Shown here one piece after another: positions 29,351 through 38,303 of a stretch of 64,000 nucleotides of DNA. The stretch covers positions 6,510,001 to 6,574,000 of the forward strand of contig NZ_LT607412.1 of the NCBI RefSeq assembly GCF_900091455.1. The letters run 5' to 3'. Each line of letters opens with the position of its first letter. Within the stretch, counting starts at the first letter, position 1. The notes beneath the pieces are model-generated. The model worked only from the letters and a program-made list of their open reading frames with translations. It was not told where the DNA came from and did no database searches. Source of the stretch: Micromonospora coriariae. Its GTDB lineage: Bacteria; Actinomycetota; Actinomycetes; Mycobacteriales; Micromonosporaceae. Position numbers and translations under genes: made by a program.

Positions 29351-30535
29351 TCAGACGGGCAGACCACCGACCTGGGTGGACATCCAGGACCGGATGGACG
29401 GCAGATCGACGTAGATGGACGGGCCGGTGGCGCAGGTGGAGTTGTTGTTGCCGGCCCGACTGGTCGCGCCGATCAGGTTCCACACCCCGTTGACCCGGCG
29501 CACCTGGGGACCACCGGAGTCGCCGTAGCAGGCTCCGGAGGTGCCGTTCGTGTTGTTGGTGCAGATCTCGTAGGGGCCGTTGATGCCCGAGCACCGGCTG
29601 TCGGCCACGATGGACGTGTCCAGCTCGTTGGCCACCGTGGGGGCCGAGCCGCAGCCCGGCCGGGGGCAGGTCTGGCCCCAACCGATGATCCGGGTGGCGG
29701 TGCCGACCGCGCCGGAGGTCGTCGGGATAGGGGCCGGGGCGTAGCTGACCGAGCTGGCCAGCTGCAGCAGCTTGACGTCGACGCTCGGGTGGTTGACCGC
29801 GCGGGTCACCCGGACGACTGTCCCGCCGCTGGTGCGGTTGACGCTGCCCACCCGGACCGAGGACGGCGTCGAGCAGTGCTTGGCGGTGACCGCCCAGTTG
29901 GCCTTGATCAGCGTGCCGGTGCAGCCGGAGACGTACACCATGAACGGGTAGTTCTCGGAGGCCGGCCGGCCGCCGACCACCGTCGGTCCGATGTCCCCGG
30001 CGCCGTCCCAGGTGTACGTCGCGCCGGTGACCGGCGCGGCGAGTGTGCCGGCGAACAGCGAGTTCACCCGGGACGCCTCGGCCGAGCTGGGGTTCGCGTT
30101 GCGGCAGGAGACCGGGGCACTGCTGCCGGACATCAGGTCGGAGCAGAGGCCGGTGCGCCGGTCCGGCAGACCCAGGATGTGGCCCAGCTCGTGGGCGGCG
30201 ATCCGGTTGCGGTCGTAGCCCTGGTTGACTGCCGTGCGGCCCATCCAGATCCGGCCCGAGCCGAGCCCGGTCGGTTGCGCCCGGGGCCAGCCGTCGTCGA
30301 CGTAGATGGTGATGCTGGCCGGGGTGCCGGGTTGCAGCCGGACGGTGCTGACCCGGCTGTTCCAGATCTGCGCGGCCTGGTCGAAGTTGGTGCGGAACTC
30401 GCCGGTCCGGCTCGCGTCGTAGTAGACGGTCCGTACGGCGGCGGCCGGAGCCCCGGTGGCGAGCTGCACCCCGGCCGCCGCCAGCACGGCCACCAGTACG
30501 GCCTGCGCCGCACGCAGCACTTGTCGTCGGAACAT
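29351..30535 (-). CDS. Secreted fusion protease: snapalysin (M7) plus trypsin-like (S1) domains
   Basis: A 394-residue exported protein with a signal peptide (about 1-33). Residues about 35-165 match snapalysin, the small neutral metalloprotease of actinomycetes: AHELGHILGLPD gives the HExxHxxGxxD zinc site, followed by SDLMSGSSAPVSC. From about 185 a chymotrypsin-fold serine protease domain begins at VVGGRPA, with TAKHC (His), a central DVKLLQL (Asp) and GDSGGP (Ser). Each domain is normally a separate enzyme. GGGGAG precedes the ATG at 30535. Both active sites appear intact. Confidence 0.88.
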   Translation of the reverse strand: MFRRQVLRAAQAVLVAVLAAAGVQLATGAPAAAVRTVYYDASRTGEFRTNFDQAAQIWNSRVSTVRLQPGTPASITIYVDDGWPRAQPTGLGSGRIWMGRTAVNQGYDRNRIAAHELGHILGLPDRRTGLCSDLMSGSSAPVSCRNANPSSAEASRVNSLFAGTLAAPVTGATYTWDGAGDIGPTVVGGRPASENYPFMVYVSGCTGTLIKANWAVTAKHCSTPSSVRVGSVNRTSGGTVVRVTRAVNHPSVDVKLLQLASSVSYAPAPIPTTSGAVGTATRIIGWGQTCPRPGCGSAPTVANELDTSIVADSRCSGINGPYEICTNNTNGTSGACYGDSGGPQVRRVNGVWNLIGATSRAGNNNSTCATGPSIYVDLPSIRSWMSTQVGGLPV

Positions 30536-30675
30536 CACGCACTCCCCTGCGGTCGTCCGGCGACCCTCGGCCACCGGTCATCGAAATACGTCAATGTTAA
30601 GACGACGATGGTCGATGTCCGGCATAGCGGAAGAGTCATAGCGGTGAGGTCGACGGGTGTTGACCGGCCGTTACG

Positions 30676-30719
30676 CCGCGGTGCGGCCTCCGCATGGCCG
30701 TGCGGAGGCCGCACCGCGG
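30676..30719 (-). terminator. Strong hairpin terminator after the NlpC/P60 repeat gene
   Basis: A perfect 19-base-pair stem (30676-30694 with 30701-30719) and a six-base loop, 20 bases beyond the stop codon at 30739. Confidence 0.75.
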
Positions 30720-30738
30720 GCATTGCCCGGGTCAGTCG

Positions 30739-32664
30739 CTACCAGTTGCCCAGCACCAGGCGGCCGGCGACGTTGCCGAGGTTGAACGGCCCGCTGTCAT
30801 ACCAGACACGGGCAGACGAGTTGCCGTTGCGCCAGACGTAGTAGGAGAACGTTCCGCCCGGCTGCTGGTACGCCATGACGATGTCGTCCTTGCCGTCACC
30901 GTCCACGTCACCAGAGGCCATCCGGTCACCGACGACGCTCAGCCGGAAGGCTCCCGAGTCGTAGTCGCTGGTGCGGTTGAAGGAATCACCGTCGGACAAC
31001 CAGCGGTAGATCCGCATGGTGCCGTCACCCTGGTCGTACGCCAAAGCCGGCTCGGCCTTGCGATCACCGTTGAAATCACCGAGCACGAGGCGGCCGCCGG
31101 CCCTGCTCAGGCTGAACGGCCCACTGTCGTACCAGACACGGGCAGACGAGTTGCCGTTGCGCCAGACGTAGTAGGAGAACGTGCCATCCGGCTGCTGGTA
31201 CGCCATGACGATGTCGTCCTTGCCGTCACCGTCCACGTCACCGGAAGCCATCCGGTCACCGACGACGCTCAGCCGGAAGGCTCCCGAGTCGTAGTCGCTG
31301 GTGCGGTTGAAGGAATCACCGTCGGACAACCAGCGGTAGATCCGCATGGTGCCGTCACCCTGGTCGTACGCCAAAGCCGGCTCGGCTTTGCGATCACCGT
31401 TGAAGTCACCGAGCACGAGACGGCCGGCAACGTTGCCGAGGTTGAACGGCCCACTGTCGTACCAGACACGGGCAGCGGAACTGCCGTTGCGCCAGACGTA
31501 GTAGGAGAACGTGCCGCCCGGCTGCTGGTACGCCATGACGATGTCGTCCTTGCCGTCACCGTCCACGTCACCGGAGGCCATCCGGCCACCGACGGCACTG
31601 AGCCGGAAGGCCCCGGAGTCGTAGTCGGTGGTGCGGTTGAACGAATCACCGTCGGACAACCAGCGGTACATCCGCATCGTGCCGTCACCCTGGTCGTACG
31701 CGACGGTCGGGGCGGCACGCCCGGTCGGCTTCGGCGGTGCCGGCGGCGTGGAGGGTTTCGCGATCTTCGTGTATCGCCGCGCGACATAGCTGGTAGCCCG
31801 GTGGCTGTCGATGTTCCCGGCGTCGATCGCCGCCGTTTTGATCCTCACCGGCGTCGAACCGAAGGTGTAGTAGGTGAAGTGCCGACGGTCGGTCTTCCAG
31901 CTCTTGAAGAGGACGACGTGCCTCGCGGCGAGGTTGAGGATGTCGCCGGGCTGCAGGTCCGCCTTGTTGATCTCGGTGGAGAACTTGTCCAGCGTGTGCG
32001 TGCTGGGGTCGGCGTTCAGATGCCAGGCCATGTCCACGAGGCCCGAGCAGTCACGCCGGTATTTGCGGGTGTGAGTGGGATCCCAGGAGAACGCTTTCTT
32101 GCTGTACGGGCCGGGCTGATGGTCCACCCAACCCTGGGCACGCTGCAGGACCTCGGCTCGCGTGATCGTCCCACCGATCGCGGAGGCCAACGTCGACATC
32201 TGGCCACCGTCGGAGCCCTGGGGCGCCGCGGGATCCTCGGTCTCGTCGACCGGATCGTCGTCGGGCAGCTCGTCGCCCGGGTCGTTCAGCTGGCAACCGT
32301 CGAGCTGGGCCGCGATCTCGGCCGGAACCGTCTCGTCGCAGACCCCACCCGAACCGACGTTGAGCGGCTTCCACTGCTGTGCCACATCCTCGTAGCGGAA
32401 CAGCACGAACGACGCGTCGTACTCACCTTCCGCCGGCACGACAGCGGTGGCCCAGGGCAGGGCACAGCTCACGCTCTCCAGCAGAGCGGGATTCCCGGCC
32501 GCCTCGTCGGTGAGCGGATCGGCCCGCAGGCCCGCCAGCAGGGTGTCCGGCGCCGGACAGGCCGGAGCCGCCGCGGCGGCCTGCGCCGGGACCCCTCCCG
32601 GAACAGCAAGAACACCAGTCATCAGCAGTACTGTCGCGAGCTTTCGCCCGCCTGATTCACGCAC
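30739..32664 (-). CDS. Secreted NlpC/P60-like protein with FG-GAP/VCBS-type repeats
   Basis: A 641-residue exported protein. After the signal peptide (about 1-32) and an unrecognised N-terminal region, residues about 165-315 form an NlpC/P60-like domain with the catalytic Cys in RRDCSGLVDMAWH and His in AARHVVLFKSW. The rest is a beta-propeller-like array with calcium-type motifs GDVDGDGKDD and GDFNGDRKAE, repeated every 110 residues. The repeats are nearly identical at DNA level. GGAGGAAG precedes the GTG at 32664. It likely acts on peptidoglycan or another amide substrate outside the cell. Confidence 0.85.
   Translation of the reverse strand: MRESGGRKLATVLLMTGVLAVPGGVPAQAAAAAPACPAPDTLLAGLRADPLTDEAAGNPALLESVSCALPWATAVVPAEGEYDASFVLFRYEDVAQQWKPLNVGSGGVCDETVPAEIAAQLDGCQLNDPGDELPDDDPVDETEDPAAPQGSDGGQMSTLASAIGGTITRAEVLQRAQGWVDHQPGPYSKKAFSWDPTHTRKYRRDCSGLVDMAWHLNADPSTHTLDKFSTEINKADLQPGDILNLAARHVVLFKSWKTDRRHFTYYTFGSTPVRIKTAAIDAGNIDSHRATSYVARRYTKIAKPSTPPAPPKPTGRAAPTVAYDQGDGTMRMYRWLSDGDSFNRTTDYDSGAFRLSAVGGRMASGDVDGDGKDDIVMAYQQPGGTFSYYVWRNGSSAARVWYDSGPFNLGNVAGRLVLGDFNGDRKAEPALAYDQGDGTMRIYRWLSDGDSFNRTSDYDSGAFRLSVVGDRMASGDVDGDGKDDIVMAYQQPDGTFSYYVWRNGNSSARVWYDSGPFSLSRAGGRLVLGDFNGDRKAEPALAYDQGDGTMRIYRWLSDGDSFNRTSDYDSGAFRLSVVGDRMASGDVDGDGKDDIVMAYQQPGGTFSYYVWRNGNSSARVWYDSGPFNLGNVAGRLVLGNW
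30752..31702. repeat. Tandem 330-bp coding repeats, nearly three copies
   Basis: The string gtccacgtca recurs at 30901, 31231 and 31561, exactly 330 bases apart, and long stretches around each are identical or differ by single bases. Each unit encodes 110 residues holding two FG-GAP-like blades. Such similarity implies recent duplication or gene conversion, and copy number may vary between strains. Confidence 0.9.
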
Positions 32665-33256
32665 AGTCTTCCTCCCCGTTCGTCATTGATGGATGTCCGC
32701 ACCATGGATGATCGAGGGCGACTCAGGGTCGTCGAGCGCTCGACGCACGTGTCGCCCCGGACGCATCCGGAGCGCGCCTCCCGACGTTGGCCAAGCGCCG
32801 GGCGTCCGAAGTGGAGATTACGGCGGGAGGGGGGCGTCGTCTGTCCCGCGATCCGGCGGCCAGACCCGTGAAGTTGCGGGCATGAATTAGGGTGGTCGGC
32901 CGCCCCGCACCGGCACGGAAGACGTCGATTCGTTGTCGGGGGTGGGCCGGAGCACCTGCTACCCACACCGGATCGTTGGCCGGCGCGCGCACGCCGGGAT
33001 GCTCGAGGCCGCCGAGACGGCACACGATCAGGGACTGGGCCTCGTACCCGCAGTCGGAAGCCCGACTTCGCGCCCGAGTCCAACGACAACAGGCCGATCT
33101 GGTGGGGGCAGCCCGCTGCTGGACCGTGGTCGGGGCTGTTACCCAGCGGTTACGCCGCAGCGAAGTGCCTGTGCCGAGGCGGGACGACGGTGGCGGCAGA
33201 GGGTCACCGGCAACGCCGCCGCGGCGTGGCCCCGAGCATCAGACGGAGGCACCACG
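32665..33256. other. Intergenic region between divergent secreted-protein genes
   Basis: About 590 bases. It must carry the promoters for both flanking genes, but no gene product in any frame was recognised. A TTAGGGT near 32885-32891 could be a -10 on the plus strand. Frames through 32930-33200 have some helical character (for example ARLRARVQRQQADLVGAARC), but no start or domain supports them. Confidence 0.4.
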
Positions 33257-33835
33257 ATGAGGATCAGGAGCGCACTGACGGCGCTGGCGGTCGTGCTCGT
33301 CGGGCTGGTCGCCGGCGCGGGCAACGGCGCCGCGGCGGGAACCACCACGGCGACGACCATGGCGCCGTACTGCGGTATCACCTGGGGCAGCGCCGAGAAG
33401 TCGGCCGGCGCGCTGAGCACCGCCCCGCTGGTCGACGTGCGGACCGGACGGCACGACTGCTACGACCGGGTGGTGTTCGAGTTCGCCGGGTCGGTCAACG
33501 GGTACGCGATCGCCTACGGCGAGACGTGGACCGAGGGCGAGGGGTTGGCGCTGTCGCCGTACACCGCCGGAGGCGCGCTGCTGCGGGTCTCGCTGCGGGC
33601 CCCCGCGTACGACGACTCCCGCCTGGGCACCGTGCCGTACCGGGTCGGTGAGCACGCCGCGAACCTGCTGCGGTACCCGACGCTGCGCGACGTCGTCTTC
33701 GGCGGCAGCTTCGAGGGCTACACGACCTTCGCCGTCGGCGTGCGGGCCCGGCTGCCGTTCCGCACGTTCGTACTAGCCGGCCCCGGCGGGCACAGCCGGA
33801 TCGTCCTCGACGTAGCCCACCAGTGGCAGCAGTGA
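33257..33835 (+). CDS. Secreted AMIN-like domain protein
   Basis: A 192-residue exported protein with a signal peptide (about 1-28). The mature part reads ITWGSAEKSAGALSTAPLVD, then CYDRVVFEFAG and ends with GPGGHSRIVLDVAH. This corresponds to the AMIN-like domain found in actinobacterial secreted proteins and lipoproteins. It probably binds cell-wall or surface components, but no activity is known. GGAGG at 33245-33249 lies seven bases before the ATG. Two cysteines may form a disulphide. Confidence 0.8.
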   Translation: MRIRSALTALAVVLVGLVAGAGNGAAAGTTTATTMAPYCGITWGSAEKSAGALSTAPLVDVRTGRHDCYDRVVFEFAGSVNGYAIAYGETWTEGEGLALSPYTAGGALLRVSLRAPAYDDSRLGTVPYRVGEHAANLLRYPTLRDVVFGGSFEGYTTFAVGVRARLPFRTFVLAGPGGHSRIVLDVAHQWQQ

Positions 33836-33922
33836 CCGACACGGTCTCCTCGGGGGGAAATGGCCGGCTGCGCCCATCGTCGGTCACGCTCGGCAGGACG
33901 TTGAGGCACCCGCAGGGCTAGA

Positions 33923-33963
33923 TCCTGGTGACCTTTTCGGTGCAACCGAAGAGGTCACCAGGA
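33923..33963. terminator. Long hairpin at the left edge of the low-GC island
   Basis: TCCTGGTGACCTTTTCGGT (33923-33941) and ACCGAAGAGGTCACCAGGA (33945-33963) are inverted copies with one mismatch and a three-base loop. It lies between convergent genes ending at 33835 and 34020, so a terminator is the simplest reading. Confidence 0.5.
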
Positions 33964-33972
33964 GAGGACGGC

Positions 33973-34059
33973 ATGGTCGGCACTGCTCATGGGATCGGAA
34001 TCGCGACCAATTTCGCCGCTCACCGTGACAGCCCCGTGATTACCCAGCCCCGTCGGTGA
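33973..34059 (+). CDS. Possible 28-residue open frame at the island edge
   Basis: AGGAGAGG lies at good spacing ahead of the ATG at 33973, and the frame reads MVGTAHGIGIATNFAAHRDS and ends at 34059, overlapping the 3' end of the NACHT-LRR gene on the other strand. It may be a small gene or the 5' stub of a gene cut by insertion of the island. I do not recognise the sequence. Confidence 0.25.
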   Translation: MVGTAHGIGIATNFAAHRDSPVITQPRR

Positions 34060-37000
34060 TCCCAGGAAGGCACCACGTTCCACAGCCTGCGTACTTGAAC
34101 ACCGGTAGGCAGACCGCCAACTTCCGCGGGAACAAGCTGCTGGCCGCCGACGAGATGAACCCGGACAGGTTGTTGTCGCGGGCCTAACACCGTCGGATCG
34201 AACGGGTCGTCCAGCCGAAGGTAGAGATCTCGCAGTCGGGGTAGCCGGGCAAGGAAGTCGAGATCCGACACGCCACAGTCGATCAGAGCCAGGCTCTCGA
34301 GCGTCGTGATCGAGCCGATGGTGGACACTTCGGCGACCTTGTCGCAGTCGCGAAGGACCAATTCCGTCAGTTTGAGCGTTGCCAGTGGAGCAACAGACCG
34401 CAGCCCATCGCTTTGAAGAACACGAACGCGACGGAGCTCCGTGAGGGCACTGAGGCTCTGGCCTAGTCCTGTCCCGTAATACTCGACGAGCGTCAGGTCC
34501 TCAAGCCCTCGAGCCAGCCGATCCAGACGAATCGAACTATCCTCCGCCAAGTGCCAGAGCGACAGCTCGCGGAGCTTGTCCAGATCCTCGAGCGCCGCAA
34601 GGTCGGTAACCTGCCGCAGCGACTTCATGGTAAGCGCTTCCAACTTGGGAAGCCCGTTCAAGAATGAAAGATCGGAAGGCGAGTCGGCGAACGTGACATG
34701 GAGCCTCCGCAGCGAGGGCAGATCCGCCAGGTACGCCACCGCTTCGGCTGGCACCGGGGTTTCCATCACCAGACTGTGGAGCGCGTCGAGCGACGGCAGC
34801 TGCGCCAGCCTCTCCACCGGGAACTGTCGCGTGGACCTGCCCCTGACCACGAGGGTAGTCAGTTGCGGAAGCTTGGTCGCCTCCTCAACGCTGTCCAGGT
34901 CCACGATCGCGGTGAGCGTACGCAGGTTTCTGAGGTGTCGGAGCGCGCGTACCTGGCGGGGGTCCGAAGACTCAATCCCCCCATCGATCAAGGGCGAGTC
35001 GGCCAAGATTTCCTTGGCGTACTCCTCAGCGTCGAAGTAGTCCCAGCCCGAAATCAGCTGCGCGACGACCGCCGGCCGGCTGTCGCGGCGGTAAAGCTTC
35101 AGCTTGGCAATCGCGTGTTCGCCCCCGATATGCACCACGGTCCGAATCACGGCTGCCGCCGAGGTCGGTGCATTCTCGGCTAGTGAATTGGGCAGGCGTG
35201 TGAGCAGATGCTCTCCCGCAGAGGACAGCGATCTCGCTTCTGCTGCGTTCCGGGGTGGCAAAATCTGGCCGAGGCACTCCTCAAGTCGCTTGCGGCGCCC
35301 CTCCGTGAGAGAAGTCGCGGTCTCCATGCACGAGATCGCGAGAAGGCGCAGCGTCCGCGCCCGTCGCGGTTCCCGCTCAGCGCGGTCCAGGATCCCATCG
35401 AGCAGTTCGCCCTGCAGTTTTGGCCCACCATGCCCTGCGGTCATGATGACGATCTCACGCCATTGGTCCAGGTGTGCTTTGTCGACGAGGAGGTCGAGGT
35501 GCTCTTCCTCGGCGGCCTCCTTGCCGGCGAGAAATTCGAGAAAAGATCTGTGAATGAAGTCGATCCGCCCGGGAACAGGTTCGCGTAACAACCCGCTCCG
35601 CGCAACGAAGTCACCGATTATCGAGGAGGCTGAAGGCAGGTCGCCAGCTACGGGAAGACGGCGCAGCCTGCTCTCTGTCCAGGCGATCGCCCTCTCCTTG
35701 GACACCTCCGAATTTGCTCTTTCCGCAAGCCGCCAAGCCAACCCTTGCAGCAGGTACTGCCGCTGCCGCATGGTCAAGGAAGAGATTGCGGACCTGGGCA
35801 GCTCCCGTTCTGTCTCCCGCAGCTCAAGCATGTCGAGAGCCGCCCGGTATATCTCCATCCGGTCTGGAGGCAGGAAACCTCTTCGGGTGAAATTCAGAGC
35901 ACACAAAAGAGCACAGAGCAGCGGTGTGGTGGCCAGGTTCCTCAGGTGAGGGCGAGCGTCGAGTTGGCCCATGATTCGCCGTTCCGCCGCTTCGACGAGC
36001 CCTCGGTCCGGTTCTCGTCCCCGTACACGACTGGCGTGCCATACCGCCTGGTGCCACTGTCGAATGAACACGCGCACGTCCAGGCGATTCATGGGCTCAA
36101 GCATCACGGTCTTGAACCCGAATTCTTCGAGCCAGTCAACCGGAACCGCCGCAGGACGGGTCGTGACGAGGACATGCGCGTCGTAGAGTCGAGCCAGCTG
36201 CCCCAGCCATGCGGCAATGGTTCGACGTCGGCTCGCCGCCAGTTCGTCCACCCCGTCGACTAGGATTAGCAGGCGGCCTGCCCGAAGTTGGCGGGCCGCC
36301 CAGTCCGCCGGTTCTTCGGCGGCGATGGCTGGCACGGCTGCGCGGACCAGGCCCGAAGGATCAGGCAGGTCCTTGCTGTCGAATCGACGAAGAGTCAGTA
36401 GGACGGGAACCAAGCTGTTCCATCCGACCAGGGAGTCGACAAAGCTCGACCTCGCGGCAGTGACCGCCAGCCATTTGAGCAGCGTCGTCTTGCCTGAGCC
36501 GGCTTCGCCTCGGATCACCGTCAAGCGGTTCTTGCCGAGGGCGTCCTCTATCCGGGACCGCTGGTGCTCACCGCCTTTACCCTGCGACCCGAACCAGTGC
36601 CGTCCCGTCCCACTCTCTCGGGCGGGTCTCGGCCGGCTGGCCGAGACCGTCAGGCCGAGGTAGGCGACACTGAGGGTTGCCCTCTTGGGATCGTCCGGTG
36701 CGTCAACACCGATAAGGTCCAATGTGTCCAAATCCTCGCTGATGAACGACAGGTAACTCTGCAGGAATGATGCGTCCTCGTCGACGGTGTTCGTGCGTAC
36801 CGACCGGGGCATCCGGGCAAGGACCTGGCGAACTTCATCCGACAACGCGGTGAGGCGTCCCAAAATCTCCACATCAACCCGTGGACCAAAGTCCGGCAGC
36901 AGCTGTGCGACTCGGATGAGATAGTCGCACGAGTCGACGAGCAGGCGGTCGAAGAACGCTTCCCCTTCGTCACTCAGGCCGTGAGGCGACAGCGACCCGT

Positions 37001-37364
37001 AGGCTCGTCGCAGGTTCTGCGCGAGCTTGACCGCGTCCATGTCGGCCTCGAAGAGATCTCGGTCGGAGGTGCGACGGAGTGTGATATGCGCAATCACAGC
37101 CTGGATGCACGCCTTGCGTTCCTCTTTATCCAGATAGCGGAACTTGCCGTCCCATGTCTTGATGAGTCGTTGTTCGATCTGATCGCAGACCGACTCGACC
37201 TGACGGCTGAACTCCCGGCGGACAAATCTGTCCGCAAAGCTCACTTCGATGAGCTCTACCAGGCCCTTTGCAGGCCTAGTTTTCGCGGACCGATGTCTGA
37301 GCCAATCGCCTGCCACTCGCGTGACGATGGCCTTGGCTAAGCCCCCGAGGGCCACGTCAATCAT
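34020..37364 (-). CDS. NACHT-LRR STAND NTPase (bacterial NLR-like protein)
   Basis: A 1114-residue protein with the layout of an animal NLR. The helical N-terminal region (about 1-280) has no recognised effector domain. The NACHT NTPase follows with Walker A GEAGSGKTT (286-294), Walker B LLILVDGVDE (365-374) and VLVTTRP (398-404). A winged/helical segment with FIHRSFLEFLAGKEA (about 602-616) comes next, then leucine-rich repeats (about 810-1050). Bacterial NACHT proteins of this design are known anti-phage sensors. GC is clearly lower than in the flanks, pointing to acquisition by transfer. AGGAG lies six bases before the ATG at 37364. It is divergent from an FHA gene. Confidence 0.88.
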   Translation of the reverse strand: MIDVALGGLAKAIVTRVAGDWLRHRSAKTRPAKGLVELIEVSFADRFVRREFSRQVESVCDQIEQRLIKTWDGKFRYLDKEERKACIQAVIAHITLRRTSDRDLFEADMDAVKLAQNLRRAYGSLSPHGLSDEGEAFFDRLLVDSCDYLIRVAQLLPDFGPRVDVEILGRLTALSDEVRQVLARMPRSVRTNTVDEDASFLQSYLSFISEDLDTLDLIGVDAPDDPKRATLSVAYLGLTVSASRPRPARESGTGRHWFGSQGKGGEHQRSRIEDALGKNRLTVIRGEAGSGKTTLLKWLAVTAARSSFVDSLVGWNSLVPVLLTLRRFDSKDLPDPSGLVRAAVPAIAAEEPADWAARQLRAGRLLILVDGVDELAASRRRTIAAWLGQLARLYDAHVLVTTRPAAVPVDWLEEFGFKTVMLEPMNRLDVRVFIRQWHQAVWHASRVRGREPDRGLVEAAERRIMGQLDARPHLRNLATTPLLCALLCALNFTRRGFLPPDRMEIYRAALDMLELRETERELPRSAISSLTMRQRQYLLQGLAWRLAERANSEVSKERAIAWTESRLRRLPVAGDLPSASSIIGDFVARSGLLREPVPGRIDFIHRSFLEFLAGKEAAEEEHLDLLVDKAHLDQWREIVIMTAGHGGPKLQGELLDGILDRAEREPRRARTLRLLAISCMETATSLTEGRRKRLEECLGQILPPRNAAEARSLSSAGEHLLTRLPNSLAENAPTSAAAVIRTVVHIGGEHAIAKLKLYRRDSRPAVVAQLISGWDYFDAEEYAKEILADSPLIDGGIESSDPRQVRALRHLRNLRTLTAIVDLDSVEEATKLPQLTTLVVRGRSTRQFPVERLAQLPSLDALHSLVMETPVPAEAVAYLADLPSLRRLHVTFADSPSDLSFLNGLPKLEALTMKSLRQVTDLAALEDLDKLRELSLWHLAEDSSIRLDRLARGLEDLTLVEYYGTGLGQSLSALTELRRVRVLQSDGLRSVAPLATLKLTELVLRDCDKVAEVSTIGSITTLESLALIDCGVSDLDFLARLPRLRDLYLRLDDPFDPTVLGPRQQPVRVHLVGGQQLVPAEVGGLPTGVQVRRLWNVVPSWDHRRGWVITGLSR

Positions 37365-37438
37365 CCGCATCTCCTGGAAGCCAGTCTGGACGCACGGAAC
37401 CAGCCGGACGCTCCCGGTCGCCTCTCCGGCACCCACAC

Positions 37439-37456
37439 TAGTATGCTTCGCATACT
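37439..37456. promoter_or_regulatory. Palindrome in the shared NACHT/FHA promoter region
   Basis: AGTATGC-TTC-GCATACT (37440-37456) is a perfect seven-base inverted repeat. TAGTAT (37439-37444) is a -10 candidate for the FHA gene, and TAGTGT on the other strand is one for the NACHT gene, so a protein bound here could control both. Confidence 0.5.
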
Positions 37457-37487
37457 TGTCGATCCGTCGCTACGGCAAGGGGGGGTC

Positions 37488-38210
37488 GTGCCAAATCCGT
37501 CCGCGCTCCCTCCGATCGGAGAGGTCGCCGAGCACCTGCGAGACTTCACCTCGGAGCTGCGGAACCTCCATCGCCAGGCAGGTTCACCCGGTTTGGAGTT
37601 GCTCAATCTGTCGCTTTCGGACCAAAAGGATCCATTCGCCACAGTTGTTATCGACCTCGCCAGCCAGGCGATGCGCGGTCAGGTACTGCTTCCGTGGCCC
37701 AAGGTACAGACGCTGGTGCGGCGGCTCGCCGAATGGGTCGGGGCGCCCGACCCGGACGAAATAGTTGACCGCCTCCACGTGAAGTGGACGACAGCGGACG
37801 CGAGTCAGATGCTCCATCGCCTGCCGACGAAGGTCCAGCCGGTCGACGGCGACCCCTCCTCGGGAGGAGCGTCCCCGCCGTGCGGATTCCTCGAGGCAAG
37901 GCGCGGCGGAGCCAGGGGCCAGATATGGGAGTTGCCGGACGGACCGGTGATGATCGGGCGCAGCTCCACCTGCTTCGTCACCCTGCCCGACTCATCGGTG
38001 TCACGTGAGCACGCGGTGATTTCGAGGACCGGGATCAACTTCACCGTACGGGACCTGGGCAGCACCAACGGGACGTATCTGAACGCCGAGAGGCTGGACC
38101 ACTCGGTTGAGTACCTTCTAGAACACAATGATCAACTCAGTGTCGGAGTGGTCCTGCTGACGTTTCTGCTCGACGCGGCCGTGTACATATCGAAGCGGCG
38201 ACAGCCGTAG
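37488..38210 (+). CDS. FHA-domain protein with a degenerate HTH-like N-terminal domain
   Basis: A 240-residue protein. The N-terminal 105 residues (IGEVAEHLRDFTSELRNLHR onward to DRLHVKW) follow the spacing of the Xre-type HTH domain common at the start of actinobacterial STAND proteins, though the helices are degenerate. Residues about 130-230 form a forkhead-associated domain with the phosphothreonine-binding residues GRSSTC, SVSREHAVI and LGSTNGTYLN. FHA domains read protein phosphorylation by Ser/Thr kinases. The GTG at 37488 is preferred because AGGGGGGG lies just upstream; the frame extends to 37443. It shares the low GC of the divergent NACHT-LRR gene. Confidence 0.82.
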   Translation: MPNPSALPPIGEVAEHLRDFTSELRNLHRQAGSPGLELLNLSLSDQKDPFATVVIDLASQAMRGQVLLPWPKVQTLVRRLAEWVGAPDPDEIVDRLHVKWTTADASQMLHRLPTKVQPVDGDPSSGGASPPCGFLEARRGGARGQIWELPDGPVMIGRSSTCFVTLPDSSVSREHAVISRTGINFTVRDLGSTNGTYLNAERLDHSVEYLLEHNDQLSVGVVLLTFLLDAAVYISKRRQP

Positions 38211-38303
38211 TGGCCACCGCAACGGATAGCGGCTCACGATAGGTGCCAGGCCGACCGCCGACTCCGACCGTTTCGCCAGGGCTGCGTACCGTCGCGGCGG
38301 GTC

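Follow-up and report, generated by a model that had tools for sequence, protein, structure and literature searches.

Do a bacterial NLR gene and the divergent gene beside it, which encodes a helix-turn-helix (HTH) domain joined to an FHA domain, belong together, or do they merely share a site at which genes are gained? The two genes lie within a 64,000-nucleotide stretch of the Micromonospora coriariae genome (assembly GCF_900091455.1, contig NZ_LT607412.1, positions 6,510,001 to 6,574,000), referred to below in its full length as the window. They make up a recent insertion, and the pairing was seen nowhere else among the loci compared. The reading preferred here, at a rough probability of 45 %, is that of a solitary NLR of the defence or abortive-infection type whose HTH-FHA neighbour most likely regulates the shared promoter region. 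The features on which this reading draws are collected in Table 1.

Table 1. Features of the locus, in window coordinates
Feature	Position	Strand	Remarks
Inserted segment	33827..38255		~4.43 kb, 62.9 % GC; flanked by AMIN-like-domain gene and response-regulator gene
NNH1-NACHT-LRR protein (bacterial NLR)	34020..37364	-	1114 aa, intact frame; from open reading frame list and Pfam
NNH1 N-terminal helical domain (PF22733)	36816..37343	-	residues 8–183, E 4.3e-34, above cut-off; presumed effector or adaptor end
NACHT NTPase domain, Walker A and B	36045..36527	-	residues 280–440, E 4.4e-21, 75.9 bits against cut-off of 26.7
Leucine-rich-repeat region	34185..34919	-	residues ~816–1060; presumed sensor
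HTH-FHA protein	37488..38210	+	240 aa, GTG start; from open reading frame list and Pfam
Divergent XRE-type helix-turn-helix domain	37515..37820	+	residues ~10–111; from structure model and relatives
FHA domain (phosphothreonine-binding family)	37950..38147	+	residues 155–220, E 1.3e-19, 70.8 bits against cut-off of 20.7
Perfect palindrome AGTATGC-TTC-GCATACT	37440..37456		in divergent promoter gap; candidate operator
Inverted repeat	33923..33963		19-nt arms, 95 % complementary, 3-nt loop; downstream of NACHT gene; terminator-like

The two-gene segment is a recent insertion in the form of a small cassette. The genome is a single contig of 6.93 Mb, and of 21 genomes searched, 9 kept the response regulator next to the segment (E ≤ 1e-80), counting the window's own. 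In the eight other genomes keeping it, both the AMIN-like gene and the response regulator aligned, and in seven of them only 28–87 unaligned bases lay between these flanks where the window has 33827–38255; the closest relative, with flanks ~91 % identical, had ~60 bases at the insertion site. The eighth relative carried a different 3.5-kb cargo at the same site (L104, 8404–11927), consisting of a sigma-70 factor with DUF6596, YCII, DUF6069, a rhamnose mutarotase and one open reading frame (ORF) without a Pfam match. As the same site is empty in seven relatives and holds other cargo in one, genes have been gained there at least twice. The preliminary description of this DNA had noted a low-GC island, which is consistent with the measured 62.9 % GC of the insert versus 72.5 % for the remainder of the window and which the relatives' gaps showed to be an insertion. 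By gene, GC content was 62.5 % for NACHT and 63.6 % for FHA, versus 72.2 % for the response regulator and 75.8 % for the kinase, with corresponding values at third codon positions (GC3) of 0.72, 0.78, 0.93 and 0.92. The neighbouring genes were scanned with PADLOC and Pfam as seven proteins between 29351 and 42179; no integrase was found among them by Pfam, and no tRNA was found in the window. The arm pattern of the inverted repeat matched only its own two arms within the window; base 33923, with which this repeat opens, is also the start that the preliminary description gave for the island.

Judged from its sequence, the larger protein is a bacterial NLR of known kind and an accessory gene. 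Pfam and alignment bore out the earlier recognition of an NLR-like NACHT-LRR protein with Walker A, Walker B and leucine-rich repeats (LRRs). Walker A reads GEAGSGKTT (residues 286–294) and Walker B ILVDGVDE, and residues G286, G289, G291, K292, D370, D373 and E374 were invariant across 20 aligned sequences, namely that of the window and 19 homologues. The gene starts at ATG 37364, with AGGAGA 5 bases ahead, in agreement with the aligned homologues. Matches to LRR_14, LRR_R13L1 and LRR_4 exceeded the Pfam cut-offs, all within residues 883–1052, and the best stretches of the internalin LRR matches ran from residue 890 to ~1060. An AlphaFold2 model of residues 1–233 was entirely helical (pLDDT 76); structural comparison of the NNH1 model gave no convincing match, no recognised fold, enzyme or activity was found for NNH1, and the domain had one match in the whole genome, the NLR itself. 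No DNA-binding domain was detected in the protein by Pfam. No PADLOC model matched it at full length, and partial matches were confined to the surroundings of the P-loop, the best being mad8 (E 1.1e-7, residues 258–393). The same genome has four more NACHT-containing frames above the Pfam cut-off, with open frames of 960–1830 aa (L002–L005).

Bacterial NLRs, or bNACHT proteins, were reportedly described by Kibby et al. in 2023, a study that is apparently reference 9 in PMC12169576. The window protein resembles bNACHT proteins in combining an N-terminal domain, a central NACHT and C-terminal LRRs in one protein from a single gene; it differs from bNACHT25, which has an N-terminal nuclease, in that its NNH1 has no recognised enzyme. 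PMC12169576 counts ORFs that combine a NACHT module with leucine-rich repeats as bona fide bacterial NLRs, the layout of the class being an N-terminal effector, a central NACHT for oligomerisation and a C-terminal sensor. With NNH1 above cut-off at its N-terminus, the protein is one more member of the actinobacterial NNH1-NACHT family (PF22733), and it offers a compact single-gene test case for the role of NNH1.

Relatives of the NLR are spread patchily. At E ≤ 1e-3, 56 of 298 genomes from the order gave matches, many covering only part of the protein; at E ≤ 1e-40, 16 of 160 genomes from the genus did so, the window's own among them. Relatives from Streptomyces, Actinomadura, Amycolatopsis, Saccharothrix, Micromonospora and others were ~26–42 % identical; with the best at ~40 %, the gene is an accessory one without close orthologues in the samples searched. 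Mean pairwise identity in the 20 aligned sequences was 47 % for NACHT, 34 % for NNH1 and 26 % for the LRR region (72 % coverage), and the low LRR identity is as expected if these repeats were to sense variable ligands. On plasmids, relatives occurred in 24 of 72,556 records, of which 14 came from Streptomyces or Embleya and 10 from cyanobacteria, and in no case did the match extend over 80 % of the query; among the matches listed, the cyanobacterial ones fell only within residues 258–663. No relatives were found in phage records or IMG/VR. At several homologous loci (L073–L075, L078 and L082) the NACHT gene stands beside rph-, rdgB- and/or peroxiredoxin-like genes, named by reading the sequences, which suggests that this neighbourhood is another recurrent insertion site.

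The second protein carries every residue of the FHA signature, which is defined by Gly-Arg, Ser-x-x-His and Asn-Gly, as had been proposed for this divergent 240-residue product and as Pfam and the individual residues confirmed; G157, R158, S172, H175, N194 and G195 are common to the window protein and its one homologue. An alternative reading of 255 aa from ATG 37443 is possible, and alignment with the single homologue favours GTG 37488. The N-terminus had been called a degenerate HTH. No Pfam HTH model matched the protein at E ≤ 1 and a sequence profile of the domain found no PDB chain at E ≤ 1, but the structure model backs an HTH fold of the XRE or lambda-repressor-like type, and two relatives of the domain scored 25.0 and 24.5 bits against HTH_31 (cut-off 27). 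The model thus supports a divergent XRE-type HTH. Its top structural neighbours were the restriction-modification controllers C.EcoT38I and C.Esp1396I, to which the predicted likeness is that of an XRE-type fold. Controllers of this kind are small HTH proteins next to a dangerous defence gene, a logic that the window locus would share, and to our knowledge C.EcoT38I and C.Esp1396I have no FHA domain.

The combination of this HTH with FHA is rare, having been seen in one other genome. Residues 1–125, searched against 5.8 billion proteins, returned only themselves. A profile search that scored the 7999 candidates sharing most words turned up one more full-length cluster (P0121, 290 aa), which proved to be that other genome's protein as read from the second start, two differences aside. 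Searches with the FHA protein matched 297 of 298 genomes, and the listed non-self matches began at residue 57 or later and took in the FHA domain. High-scoring FHA proteins were rejected as homologues of the N-terminus, as their scores came from FHA domains, of which most of those read had two per protein. PADLOC gave no match for the FHA protein.

The HTH-like module of ~100 residues also fronts FxsT NB-ARC-TPR, NACHT, AAA_16 and WD40 proteins (L244, 6890–13471; L245, 7376–10216; L246–L278) in these actinobacteria, where it is likewise found ahead of FHA, YbjN and L12-like proteins and of one type that resembles GIY-YIG below cut-off; part of these loci span 1.5 kb on each side of the match, a length at which the ends of long frames are cut and FHA domains could be missed. 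Across five sequences of the domain, 22 of 116 alignment columns were invariant, with a match to NF040586 (FxsT). FxsT, the NB-ARC-TPR protein of the FxSxx-COOH system, shares the N-terminal HTH-like domain with the window protein, but there it is fused to a STAND NTPase and in the window to FHA. A module common to FHA, FxsT, NACHT, AAA and WD40 proteins offers a starting point for understanding the wiring of such genes.

Under the preferred reading, the variable C-terminal LRRs would sense an invader or a host component that has been disturbed, NACHT would bind NTP and oligomerise, and the helical NNH1 at the N-terminus would execute a growth-arresting or killing response, while the divergent XRE-type HTH-FHA protein would locally regulate the shared promoter region by repression or activation. 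We infer sensing, oligomerisation, killing, defence, DNA binding and regulation alike, regulation from the layout of the locus and defence from the protein family. Control of NLR expression by the FHA protein fits the divergent genes, the XRE-type HTH fold and the genome-unique palindrome. The promoter gap, estimated beforehand at about 120 bases, measured 123. Within it, the palindrome is 31 bases ahead of the start of the FHA gene and 75 ahead of that of the NACHT gene. With up to 2 mismatches allowed it was the sole site of its kind in the window, against an expectation of 0.03 that overstates its weight, as the palindrome was picked after being seen; at up to 1 mismatch it was the sole site in the 6.93-Mb genome. 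The 20-kb locus with the second HTH-FHA gene lacks it.

An analogy for such regulation exists in Caulobacter. According to PMC13236601, the XRE-family repressor CdxB keeps the CARD-NLR-like LypABC low and an NLR-like system can become toxic when overproduced; local regulation is for these reasons the simplest role for the HTH-FHA protein. The likeness would lie in an HTH regulator restraining an NLR-like killer, a regulation that in the window we infer. LypABC differs in having peptidase domains and TPR-like repeats, and the available part of that source mentions no FHA for CdxB. No described NLR with an HTH-FHA partner came up among the open-access papers listed by literature searches. If the HTH-FHA protein does control the NLR, it would be a rare direct link of Ser/Thr phospho-signalling to a bacterial NLR.

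The strongest rival, quite possible in its own right, is that the NLR and HTH-FHA genes are unrelated accessory genes that came to a common site of gene gain without any functional link. Its case comes from the neighbourhoods of 120 homologous NLR loci (115 distinct by their last 300 residues), comprising all 27 non-window matches at E ≤ 1e-60, 13 further genus matches and, out of 375 loci, the 80 best. Flanks were fetched as pieces of 6.7–20 kb for the first 40 loci and as up to 6 kb on each side for the 80, with less than 1.5 kb upstream in 6 of the 120, and ORFs of at least 60 aa were compared with profiles at E ≤ 0.1. None of the 120 had an FHA ORF in its fetched flanks, and none had an ORF with the partner's N-terminal HTH domain. 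In turn, the 20 kb fetched around the sole HTH-FHA relative contained nothing related to this NACHT protein at E ≤ 1. All of this weighs against the regulatory reading: the pair's absence elsewhere favours two passengers, as does the unrelated cargo at the same site in another relative. The divergent HTH-FHA neighbour alone sets the window protein apart from other actinobacterial NNH1-NACHT proteins. Neighbours in 20 listed loci were varied genes by heuristic gene calls, so that the NLR has no constant partner there. What speaks for a link is the common divergent gap with its genome-unique palindrome, the similar GC3 of the two genes and a single insertion that spans just these two.

The two-gene module of the preliminary description therefore fails the co-occurrence test proposed with it, and three rounds of neighbourhood comparison led to the rejection of a conserved module. 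The lack of the partner at the 120 loci is the strongest evidence against that module. Next to the cassette, the seven neighbouring proteins gave no PADLOC match at E ≤ 1e-5. Neither a conserved NLR-FHA module nor an adjoining defence island is supported.

A more elaborate form of the regulatory reading, rather unlikely as it stands, is a phospho-switched controller in which the HTH-FHA protein would bind the palindrome and repress the NLR until a Ser/Thr-kinase signal, from stress or phage attack, reached the FHA domain. If true, the arming of a bacterial NLR would be coupled to eukaryotic-style kinase signalling. It is more doubtful still that the NACHT-LRR protein is a STAND regulator of development or metabolism and not a defence receptor. 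The lack of PADLOC genes among the seven neighbours and of a full-length PADLOC match would agree with such a role, and work on bacterial STAND NTPases has for the most part treated them as transcription regulators (PMC7159879), but the protein has no DNA-binding domain by Pfam, and its patchy spread and fast-varying LRR region are unlike those of a core regulator. Least probable is a two-protein signalling module, in which the FHA protein as sensor or adaptor would recognise a phosphothreonine of the NLR or of some kinase target and trigger the NLR directly: its FHA signature is complete, FHA is listed among possible N-terminal domains of STAND-type conflict proteins (PMC8195603) and the same HTH-like module fronts STAND NTPases, for example FxsT and a NACHT protein, but there was no co-occurrence in the 120 loci, the seven Pfam-scanned neighbours included no Ser/Thr kinase (the neighbouring kinase is a histidine kinase), and the N-terminus models as an HTH fold and not as a known adaptor.

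Beyond the two-gene cassette, a second lineage-specific segment lies upstream of the NLR/FHA insert at 30657–33138 of the window; in the closest relative the corresponding flanks abut within 6 bases. Inside it, a gene at 30739–32664 on the minus strand encodes a protein that has FG-GAP repeats and matches NlpC/P60 weakly, below cut-off; the closest relative lacks this protein. At 29351–30574, Pfam found M7 metalloprotease and trypsin domains within one protein.
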